From: Rhea pennata
Lineage: Eukaryota > Chordata > Aves > Rheiformes > Rheidae
NCBI RefSeq assembly: GCF_028389875.1
Contig: NC_084663.1
Coordinates: forward strand, 119,931,801-119,995,800
Reading direction: 5' to 3'
DNA: 64,000 nucleotides
Under the pieces are notes generated by a model. The model did not search any database and was not told the DNA's origin. It was given only the letters and a program-made list of their open reading frames with translations. The position numbers were made by a program, and so were the translations under genes. Position 1 is the stretch's first letter. Each line of letters starts with the position of its first letter. Below are positions 18,803 to 31,000 of this stretch, one piece after another.

Positions 18803-20859
18803 TCATAGAACACTGACCATATGCAGCTGCTAAACAATGTATTCAGTTTAAGCAAACTAGTATTTGTGTATCATCCATATTCTTTTAACAAAGATGCTCC
18901 TGGAAGGCATGATGCACAAAGCCACTTCAAAGAGCCATGCTTCATTACTAAACACAACCGTGTTCATATTTTAGAAGCCTATTTAAAGAATTCAGATAAA
19001 CAAATGTACAAAATTCTACCATTATATTAAAGACTATGCTCTAATAAAAAACTAAAAAAATAATAAAAAAAGCAAGCTCCTGGGGCAAAAATGGTATAAA
19101 CTATTAATCATTGGACTTCACATAGAAGTCTTAGGAAAAAAAAAATATATATTTTTCCTACATTGAGATACCATTCTGGATACCAAAATGATGTGATGAC
19201 TGATTACATTTTGGCACACAATGTTAGCAAACTTGCTGAGAAGTGGTTTTCAGTAACTGCTAGTAGGCAGTAGTTGAGACTCCATTTTTTGTTACATCAC
19301 ATACGCGTTCTGTTACAATGACAGCTTGACTATGCAGCTGTACTACTTTAAGACTATTCCCATCCAGATGTTACTACCTCTCCCGTCTGCTGGAAAACTA
19401 ACTCACAAGCTTGCTATTTCAGTTAAAATGAGCTGGGTTAGGATAAATATATGAGCACATCTCACACCTATTGAACAAAGATCAAGAATCACATAAATCA
19501 AACCATGTGAGAAACTGACCCAACAGAGCAGAGGCAGGAAAACTATGGTGCAGAGTGTGAAAAGAGCAGGAATCACCAAGCAGCTAGTGTGGAGCTGAAG
19601 GCAGTAACCTTATAGCTTCAGCCAGCACAATCCCATGAACACATCATCAAGCCAGTAAGCAGCTACAACTATTGCAGTGAGTTTTATACTGGCCAAGGAA
19701 GGGGAAGTGAAGAGCTTCTCCTTGACCAGTTCTCTACTAAACTAAGCATGCCTCAGTAAGAGTTGAGAGTCAAATTAGGTGCTATGCATTCTCTTATCCG
19801 ATACATGGCCATCCAAGAATTTATATATTTTAACGGGAGAAATATTTTCCTATCAGTAATTATTTGTTGTCAACAACAGCTGTCTTAAGTGTTCCAAAAA
19901 TAGGCGGATGAGGTAGTACAATAATCAGAAACTGGTAAGGTTTAATCAATGCAGCAGTCTAATATTGAAGCACTTTAAGTATGGAAGAACAATGGAGAAA
20001 TAGTAAAAAGGTCTGGAATGTAAGGATTCTGAACCTCAATCATTTCACACACACACAAAAAAAAAAACAAGTGTTTTGTTTGTTTTTCTGTTTTATAAAG
20101 AAAACACACAAAAACCCTTAGGCCCAAGAGTTCACCTGCATTTCATATTCTTAAATTTACAGTATAGAAGTCACATTAATGATAGTACTACCTGTCAGCA
20201 TAAACCCTCTCTTTACCAGCACCATTATGCCTTTTTAACTGGCAAATACACTTTTCACTAGTAACTGGTTCTAGTTGTATGTTTTCAATAATGGAAGTAC
20301 AGAACATTTAACATCTGTACTAATACAAGCTGTAATGTTATTAACCTAGTGACCATTCATTACTCTTCTGATGCAATATTAACATCCACCAGACTTTTAT
20401 AGTGTACAGTATTATTTATAAGCCTGTTACTATTGTATACAATTTCATACAGCATTAGAGATGTTTGAAATCTGTTCTTGAATGTGTTAATGTTGTATGA
20501 CCTAGGTAGTATTCCATTGCAGCACCCATAACAATAATACTCAACATACTGCTATCAACCTGTTGTGCAGTGTTTTAACATTTTTAAGTCTTGTTATATG
20601 TAATAAAATACCAGTATAGACAAAAAATTGCCCCTATAATGAGGCACATTTTGGCATCTGTGCTAAATGCTGCTACATGGGCAGGCAAGTGCAAGTCAAA
20701 ATATGAAAAGGAGAAAGTCATGATCTAATCACATTCATAACTTTTTCATAGAAAAATATAAATATATTCCCTGAAATGTAGGACAAAGAAGAGCCAGCAT
20801 CCATCATGAGTTCTAGTGCTATTACCATAAAAAAAGTGTGCTGGCTTTTCTTTTTAAGG
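18803..20859 (-). other. BRWD1: Probable BRWD1 3'UTR
   Basis: AT-rich, no coding potential. Its first part (about 20772-20831) matches a stretch of the preceding intron at about 27484-27544, part of the exon duplication described in the findings. Confidence 0.5.
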
Positions 20860-28000: not shown

Positions 28001-31000
28001 CTTCTCTTTCAGATTCTCCTGTGTCCTCTAAATCACTCAAGACTTTTGCTTTTTTTAAAGGAGCAACAGGCTGCTGACCAGTCATTTTTCTGCTGTTGCA
28101 CCTCTCCAATTCAGAATCTGCTTCATCCTCCAGTAAGACTGCAGGCTTATCTGCAGATGTTGACTGGTCAGAAACTTTCCGACTGCTCCCATCCTCTGAA
28201 TTATGGCTTTTGGAGTCCTCATCCGACAGTTCTAGTGTAGGATTTTCTGTCTTGGGAGACACCGAATGGACTGTCTCACGCAACTGTTTATGGCCATTGC
28301 TTTGCCAGTTTTTATGCTTCATTTGTGTGTCTGTCTCCGAATCTGACGTTGCATTTTCAGATTCACTAATGAATTTTCTTCTTGCAACAGAGGAACCAGG
28401 TTGAGAATGAATTTTCCTCTTGGTAAACTGTTCTCCTTCTTTTTCACTTTCAGATTTTAGACCAACATCATCTTCAGAGCCATCCAGTAACATTCGCCTG
28501 GCTGCAGCTGAGGCATTCCGGTGAGGCAGTTTTCTGTTCTTGCATCCAATACCGATGCTTTCTGAGCTTGAAACCTCTTCCTCCACATCACTCATTAGCT
28601 TTAATTTATTAGCAGCCACAGCAGCACTCCTCCGTGGAATTTTTCTATGTCGACCAGTACTATTACTCAGTGATTCAGATGTCACCACTGAAGTATTTTC
28701 AGAGTCACTTCCATATAACCTTTTCCTGGCAGTTCTTCTCGTATTCCCATTCTCTTGAGAAGGCATTCCTGAAAAGTAAGAGTGATTAAAATTTTAGATA
28801 CATAAATAGACACTTCTTAGATCTTTTCTAATCTCAAACAGGTTCAACTCAAAAACATGGCTAATGGAATATGCTTTTAGTAATAGTTATGCGATTTTAT
28901 TGTCTAACAGGAAGAGATACTGAACCCTATCACATATTTTGAATTCATTTTTGTGAAAATTCTTTACAAATTAATTTTACTTTAATTAAGATTTAAAATG
29001 TTGCAAGACACTCCTTCTCACTAGACTGTTTGTTTCTGCCTCCTATCTTGATTATCAAAACCAATTATTTATTTTGAAAACTTCAAGTAGTATTTTGAGA
29101 GCTATATAACTAGCTACAGTCAGAACGTATACAACAACTAAAAATAGTGATTACCTTTTATTAACGACACTTCTCTTGTGTTATTGATTGTTGACAGAAA
29201 AACTAGTCAAATCTTACCTATTTTTTTCCTTTGAGCAGCTCTATTTCTAGTTATCCTGAAATTGTTATTCTTTCTTCTAGATACACCATTGTGTAGCGGG
29301 GGTGATACAAGAGTTGCAGAGCTTTCTTTGCTGTCTTCTGAGCTACTTGTAGAGGATGAAGAGGAAGAGGAAGAAGAAACCAAAGAAGCTTCTATTTCAC
29401 TATCTGTTAAAAAAATAAAATTTTCAATTAGAATTCTAAACACAGTTAAATTGCAATTAAGAGCTGCAGTTTACTGATCAAAAAAGTCTTCACATTTCCT
29501 CATAATATTTATTTTACAGTGCACTGTTTTATCATGCCTTGATTTCTTATATCAATAAGAAATTGGTAACTATATTTGCAGAATATGCCACTTAATATTT
29601 CTAACGTTTTCTATTGATAGGAAGCTTCTTTGAGCTGTATTTTTTGTTCTGACTAAAATAACACAGCTATGTTCACATATCTTTAAGCAGGACATGCAGC
29701 CTAATTTTTTGAAGGAAGCTGAGATTTTTGTCAGATAGAGGGAGAACAGCCAGAGATTAAGGTTTTTATGCCTCTGAGAACTTCCATTCTGCCATTTGCT
29801 AAGTTTTACTTAAAAAAAAAAAGTTTATAATGTACCATATGCAGGGATATGACCTGTATTTTACATAGCACCATTTATCAAACCGCTTATATTTTTGTCT
29901 TAAATAAAAGGTATCCATTTACCACAACGACTCAACTGCTGTTTGATATGTATAAATTCTATTACTGAAATTAGTGGAAGACTGAAGAGCACCAAGTAAC
30001 CATATTGGTGCATCAATTTTCTTATCAGTTTCAATCAGCTCAGATTTTTAGTGAATCCCCAAAGTGGCCAAAATTGCAATCTATTAGACTGCAATAGGTA
30101 ACCAAGACAGCTCTGCCTCTTAACTATCCTAATGACAAATCTCCTCTTCGAAGTAGGCTTTTCATTAATAAAGGAGCTGATAATCTTACTGCATTTTATG
30201 TGATTTTAAAGCAGAAAATTCTGTCTTCAGTACACAATTCAGAAAGGTATTGTACCCAATTCAACAATGTAGTAAGAGTTCAAAATTCAACAAAATACAC
30301 AACATTCAAAATTCAATATTACTCAAAATATAAACTGCATAAAAATCTTGTCTAAAAAACTTCTCACTGATTAGCAAGTAAACATTAGCAAACTTCATAG
30401 ATATGACCAAGATAAAAAGCTGCACCTGAAACAGATTCCATTTCTTACCTGATGACAAAGCAGAACAGTTTGTTAGTGTTGTAGATCTAGCCTTTCCGTT
30501 CCTTTCAAAGGATGCCAGGCATGCAGAATCTGAAGATTCACCGGAGGAACTATGGACATAATTGCTAGCATTCATTTTATGGCTTGTAACACAAGCGGCT
30601 CTGCTTGAGGTAGGTAGAGTAAAAGAATCTTCCCGCTCAGATTCAATTTTTGCCTGAGATTTTAAAGGTTTCTGCTTCAAATTTCTAATGAAAGGGGAAA
30701 GAGACAAAAGCAACATAGGCTGTAAAACTACGAAAAATAGATAATTAAGTGTTCTGACAATAATTCTTCCCCCAGAAGCTTAAATCGTATGGCATACGGT
30801 TGTTTTAGATTTATGGAAGAGTAATTAGATTTGTGACCTAACAGGTGTGGGACAATTTTAATGTTGATAAGCATTAAGTACTCCCAGTAAAAAACAGTCT
30901 ACATTCCTAGTAAAGTTATAGGAGAAAAAAAAGTTTCTCTCTACTGTCTGAAAAAAAAAAAAAAGTTCATGCATTATGTGTCCGTGACAAAATACCTTCT

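Follow-up and report, generated by a model that had tools for sequence, protein, structure and literature searches.

The window analyzed here is a stretch of 64,000 nucleotides from contig NC_084663.1 of Rhea pennata, and its minus strand carries the 3' part of BRWD1. The exon of the second bromodomain (34653-34507, minus strand) had chain 3q2e (BRWD1) as its best match with 66.3 bits, as compared to 61.6 bits for the best PHIP chain, a narrow margin over 41 residues with a BRWD3 chain absent among the matches listed; for the first bromodomain the best-matching chains belong to other proteins. From the second bromodomain onward seven exons form one open frame, which ends in a TAA at 20862-20860 (minus strand). 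The protein runs for 991 residues from KTGYDENSW to its end, and the last five exons, here called c, d, e, f, and g, are entered in phases 0, 2, 1, 1, and 1, respectively. Three ORFs at 11976-17145 (minus strand) match the Pfam family PAC1 (PF16094) and mark the next downstream gene, on the same strand as BRWD1, which we take to be PSMG1; its first exon, at ~16.8-17.1 kb, is G+C-rich by eye. Between the two genes lies an Rfam tRNA match on the plus strand (18311-18380; 31.8 bits, gathering threshold 29) that was not called by ARAGORN in its bacterial setting. Two further minus-strand ORFs (3313-3576 and 2330-2740) are without a Pfam match and presumably, from a motif, resemble degenerate pieces of a CR1 LINE. 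The features of the BRWD1 3' end are collected in Table 1.

Table 1. Features of the 3' end of BRWD1 in the window (positions are those of the window)
Feature	Position	Strand	Description
BRWD1 exon e	29218..29403	-	Precedes the repeated pair; donor ATAG/GTAAGA leaves phase 1; in frame with exon f; phase as in exon e of both paralogs
Exon f, upstream terminal-exon copy, now internal (predicted)	27800..28768	-	969 nt, phase 1-1, without stop
GAG/GTAAAA, predicted donor, apparently derived	27794..27802	-	Live copy has AAG/GAAATC at the matching place, no GT
Putative remnant of the former C-terminal coding end	27652..27721	-	Within open frame 27723-27631; alignment, shuffles, PHIP+BRWD3 profile, codon phase
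Putative old 3'UTR relict, block 1	27471..27544	-	58/75 columns identical to 20832-20759; 0/500 shuffles
Putative old 3'UTR relict, block 2	27377..27457	-	55/83 columns identical to 20729-20648; 0/500 shuffles
Intron between the copies, 5.8 kb	22005..27799	-	Apparently built in part from a former gene end
Exon g (live terminal exon), coding sequence up to TAA	20860..22004	-	Open frame, homology to exon f
Live 3'UTR portion matched by the intron relict	20648..20859	-	Alignment and shuffles

Exons f and g had been read as copies of one another in a sequence-only reading of this DNA, and our searches bear this out. Alignment by blastn joined 28644-27377 to 21901-20648 at 61% over 1318 columns (E 5e-88), and tblastn against the whole genome (an assembly of 1.27 Gb in 180 contigs, used for all genome-wide searches) matched the exon copies at 49% protein identity over query residues 28-297 (E 2.2e-47), with 141 of the 295 aligned codons identical at the protein level. 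A genome-wide DNA search gave at least 3 matches, all of those listed lying within exons f and g, and a weak tblastn match on another contig (C15, E 8) falls in an ORF that was judged unrelated by reading. Neither exon copy matched a Pfam family above cut-off, and PDB sequences gave 0 matches to the live exon. Relatives of the live exon were also sought in viral and prokaryote contigs, where 57 and 223 pattern matches, respectively, were obtained and none was confirmed.

Homologous points of the two copies lie 6.70-6.74 kb apart by arithmetic on the alignment coordinates, which would be the length of the duplicated unit if nothing has been gained or lost since. The earlier proposal that this unit ran from the acceptor into the 3'UTR stood at its 3'UTR end, which reaches ~100 nt further than had been claimed (block 27457-27377), but not at its start: detectable homology begins at 28644, inside exon f, and the similarity of the first ~120 nt of exons f and g (reached by 200 of 500 shuffles) and of the introns upstream of both acceptors (78 of 500) is not above chance. 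A local alignment extends ~35 nt into the pyrimidine-rich tracts before both acceptors (28769-28803 and 22005-22036, minus strand), within introns at that same level of 78/500 shuffles.

The homology does not end at the predicted donor of exon f, as the sequence-only reading had noticed, but runs past it into the intron as three colinear blocks of near-equal spacing that match the live coding end and 3'UTR. The first block (27721-27652), which had been counted by hand at 49 of 69 positions over 27652-27720, was recovered with 50 of 70 positions identical to the live coding end and a score of 30 against a shuffle maximum of 21. The second (27544-27471), previously seen as 27484-27544 and likewise assigned to the live 3'UTR after the stop, scored 37 against a maximum of 18 and by itself reached E 1.3e-9 under blastn 2/-3 scoring, while the third (27457-27377), absent from that reading, scored 23.5 against a maximum of 18.5. 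Each test used 500 dinucleotide shuffles; none of the three scores was reached by any of them, whereas that of a control stretch of the same intron was reached by 396. The stretches between the blocks (27799-27722 and 27651-27545) are within the range of 200 shuffles each, beyond 27370 there is no signal (152 of 500 shuffles reach the score), and blastn and tblastn searches of the intron between the copies gave neither remnants of exon d or e nor any additional flank homology. The first block is open between stops and has the same codon phase as the live copy. Its mismatches number 3, 9, and 8 at codon positions 1, 2, and 3, respectively, and are thus not concentrated at third positions, a spread that gives no sign of coding constraint overall. 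Because the live TAA faces a CAA in the alignment, inside a segment that is not itself significant, the old stop of the upstream copy was probably not preserved.

Two paralogs of BRWD1 were found in the same genome, on contigs C11 (93%) and C3 (82%), each over query residues 1-76; we take them to be a BRWD3-like and a PHIP-like gene, respectively. From 14 extracted paralog stretches the terminal exons were read, and each paralog has a single one that ends in (K/R)TRN(Q/E)GRRT (...RIKTRNEGRRTVLYND... in the BRWD3-like gene and ...HMRTRNQGRRTAFYNE... in the PHIP-like gene). A profile of 22 motif columns was built from the two paralogs alone, BRWD1 being left out, and run against the 3510 peptides (12 residues or longer) in the six frames of the window. 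Its best hit was the live exon (E 2.2e-5), followed by the relict at E 0.012, marginally outside the HMMER inclusion threshold, and then by a peptide at E 0.81; when confined to the intron's three minus-strand frames (172 peptides), the profile gave the relict E 0.0006 and the next peptide 1.9, in a test that was not blind, as the motif window had been picked after the resemblance was seen. After RTRN, live BRWD1 has G but both the relict and the PHIP-like gene have Q, which argues against a recent origin of the relict by copying of the live BRWD1 end. The live protein ends in an aspartate run encoded by GAC repeats (20890-20930, minus strand); because the relict is without this run and the acidic stretches of the paralogs are shorter, the live BRWD1 end has itself probably been altered after the duplication.

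Exon structure points in the same direction as the motif. Exons c, d, e, and the last exon of the paralogs are entered in phases 0, 2, 1, and 1, and in each paralog they join into a single open frame; set against the phases 0, 2, 1, 1, and 1 of BRWD1, this gives BRWD1 one exon more than both paralogs, at the place of the repeat, the extra exon being missing in 2 of the 2 paralogs of this genome. The paralogs' C-terminal motif in the relict and their shorter exon series at matching phases both agree with the earlier suggestion that the upstream copy is a former last exon turned internal, with its old coding end and 3'UTR in the intron. The AANK-K-MSD body of the repeat was not matched in the paralogs, with only weak matches to their terminal exons, and the live and relict UTR stretches scored at best 14.5-16.5 against the paralogs' 3'UTRs, within the shuffle range of other pairs.

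The predicted donor of the upstream copy, GAG/GTAAAA, lies within sequence homologous to live coding sequence reading AAG/GAAATC at the matching place, and therefore looks derived. Under a generic donor matrix it scored 5.53, a moderate value and the 4th best of the GT sites in 28768-26500. The coding frame of the relict is +2 relative to that of exon f, and therefore simple read-through past the donor misses the relict coding end, giving 20 residues and then a stop. Phase 1 is found at the donor at 29218 and at the acceptors of exons f and g, and likewise at the last acceptors of both paralogs.

Under a codon model, omega between exon copies f and g was 0.16-0.27, as expected if selection on the protein held both exon copies. 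Identity at four-fold sites is higher between the copies (32 of 48) than for the paralogs (50 of 139 and 45 of 125; P 0.0003 each), which suggests, at these sites, that the exon copies arose after BRWD1 had separated from the paralogs. Two-fold synonymous sites gave no such separation (39/67 between the copies vs. 130/216 for the BRWD3-like gene, P 0.78) and are near saturation, 39/67 comparing with a chance level of 0.55. The codon model put dS at 1.62, 2.02, and 1.75 on 295, 230, and 137 codons, respectively, with a dS of 1.17 fitting the full set 2.4 lnL worse, and the NG86 estimate of dS between the copies was 1.29, while four-fold sites alone gave d 0.47 (0.25-0.9). The codon-model and four-fold estimates conflict, and we assign no date. 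Human BRWD1 has 2320 residues and its bromodomain construct starts at ~1310, leaving ~1010; next to the 991 residues here, this length would fit two serial copies in mammals too, as a possible lead.

Taken together, we regard it as probable (roughly 0.87) that the terminal exon of BRWD1 was duplicated in tandem and its upstream copy internalised by way of a predicted splice, leaving the old coding end and 3'UTR in the intron. Speaking for this reading are the exon homology, the colinear spacing of blocks that no shuffle reached, the paralog profile that finds the relict motif, the single terminal exons of the paralogs at matching phases, and the low omega and higher four-fold identity of the copies. 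Speaking against it are the absence of above-shuffle homology upstream of the acceptors and over the ~120 nt at the start of the exons, relict segments between the blocks that are unreadable, a donor of only moderate score, relict mismatches that are not concentrated at third positions, two-fold sites at which copies and paralogs are not distinguished, and a motif window chosen with the resemblance already in sight.

In the sequence of events that we propose, a segment comprising the BRWD1 terminal exon plus 212 nt or more of 3'UTR would have been duplicated in tandem after BRWD1, BRWD3, and PHIP had separated, and we infer that the acceptor was included in this unit. A new donor, GAG/GTAAAA, would then have arisen inside the upstream coding sequence, ~77 codons before the stop-equivalent position, and transcripts running through the first end would splice from 27800 to the downstream copy at its phase-1 acceptor (22004). 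The upstream copy would thereby have become an in-frame internal exon of 323 codons, doubling a charged, repeat-like protein tail, and the stretch beginning at the new donor and comprising the old C-terminal motif and 3'UTR would have become intron and then decayed. The old poly(A) site would have been lost in the course of these changes, whose order is the one we consider plausible.

It is possible, if doubtful, that exon f is a cassette that can be skipped by splicing from 29218 to 22004, so that one- and two-copy isoforms coexist. The shared phase 1 at the donor 29218 and at both acceptors, and an exon length of 969 nt that is divisible by three, are in keeping with such skipping, whereas an omega below 0.3 suggests that exon f is translated. 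Cassette use would alter how the exon is used and not its history, and is compatible with the duplication and internalisation proposed above.

Rather unlikely, in our estimate, is that the upstream copy functions to this day, or functioned until a short time ago, as an alternative last exon, with the donor left unspliced in some transcripts, a 20-residue tail added and the old 3'UTR used, so that the relict is living or lately retired. With the live side held fixed, simulated decay fits the whole relict at d ~0.6-0.8, depending on the indel rate. Under neutral decay at d 0.8 the observed scores of 27721-27652 and 27544-27471 were reached in only 7 and 1 of 180 runs, respectively, and these two blocks are thus better preserved than decay at that distance predicts; the codon-model dS of 1.6-2.0 would in turn place ~0.8-1.0 on the relict branch. 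At d 0.6, however, the same scores were reached in 83 and 41 of 180 runs, and if the four-fold d of only 0.47 is taken, neutral decay would be adequate for the relict, with long use as an alternative end possible. As the dating estimates disagree, past selection on the relict is not a necessary conclusion. In EDxDYTK, 4 of the 5 differing codons are synonymous as read from the alignment, which favors a living end, while the +2 frame of the relict relative to the exon and the spread of the mismatches in its coding block weigh against one. Behind the upstream copy the first AATAAA is at 24661 and there is one ATTAAA at 26566, ~1.0 kb past the old stop position; in the live copy, likewise without an AATAAA until 18802, the nearest ATTAAA is at 19946, 0.9 kb past the stop. 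Weaker poly(A) variants occur nearer the relict, e.g., ACTAAA at 27384, AATGAA at 27173, and GATAAA at 27081. The comparable ATTAAA distances can be counted in favor of an alternative end, but there is no homology around the two ATTAAA sites (test beyond 27370), and because these distances are similar behind both copies the poly(A) signal does not decide between a fossil and an alternative end. Folding of the RNA in four UTR stretches also offers such an end no clear help, as none clearly beats its shuffles (best z -1.38, a stability equalled or exceeded by 21 of 200 shuffles).

We consider it unlikely that, following the duplication, the upstream copy acted over a long period as an alternative last exon, contributing a C-terminal motif and a 3'UTR of its own, and that part of the former 3'UTR is still selected as a functional element of the intron; if such a long-lived alternative end were true, the locus would document how two gene ends were gradually reduced to one. 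That the intron similarity is low complexity or chance and no relict at all is very improbable, for although the region is AT-rich and the patches between the blocks are not above shuffles, three separate colinear blocks each went unreached in 500 dinucleotide shuffles and the paralog profile finds the relict.

Read as the tandem duplication of a terminal exon with internalisation of its upstream copy, BRWD1 differs from its relatives and from known cases. The BRWD3-like and PHIP-like paralogs in this genome share with it exons c, d, and e, entry of the terminal exon in phase 1, and the ending (K/R)TRN(Q/E)GRRT, but they have one terminal exon each, in which the AANK-K-MSD body is unmatched, where BRWD1 has two copies. 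The duplication in haptoglobin allele 2 is internal. The BRWD1 case would be a variant of intron gain by tandem duplication, a known route (PMC4974935); as far as the available part of that account goes, the likeness lies in the tandem copies and in an acceptor side that comes from the downstream copy, whereas in BRWD1 the duplicated exon is terminal, the new intron takes in a protein end and 3'UTR, and the event is an old one in a vertebrate gene, with no above-shuffle homology upstream of the acceptors. In dmrt1 of Solea, where a duplication covers part of exon I plus exons II and III (PMC7605655), and in haptoglobin allele 2, duplication within one gene likewise adds exons, yet unlike for BRWD1 the available portions of these accounts mention no former gene end inside an intron. 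In the open literature on BRWD1 or WDR9, the titles and abstract starts among the matches listed hold no description of the duplication, and none of eight papers matched in that literature joins BRWD1 with "exon duplication" or "internal duplication."

Duplication of a terminal exon would be expected to be useless in most cases, as the first copy ends the transcript. At BRWD1 a route around this outcome is legible, in which a donor within the old coding sequence would have rescued the frame and the protein end and 3'UTR would have passed into the intron. The duplication would add 323 codons to a bromodomain protein and would account for the exon missing in its two paralogs, and it makes the BRWD1 locus a testable case of a gene's 3' end having been demoted to an intron.
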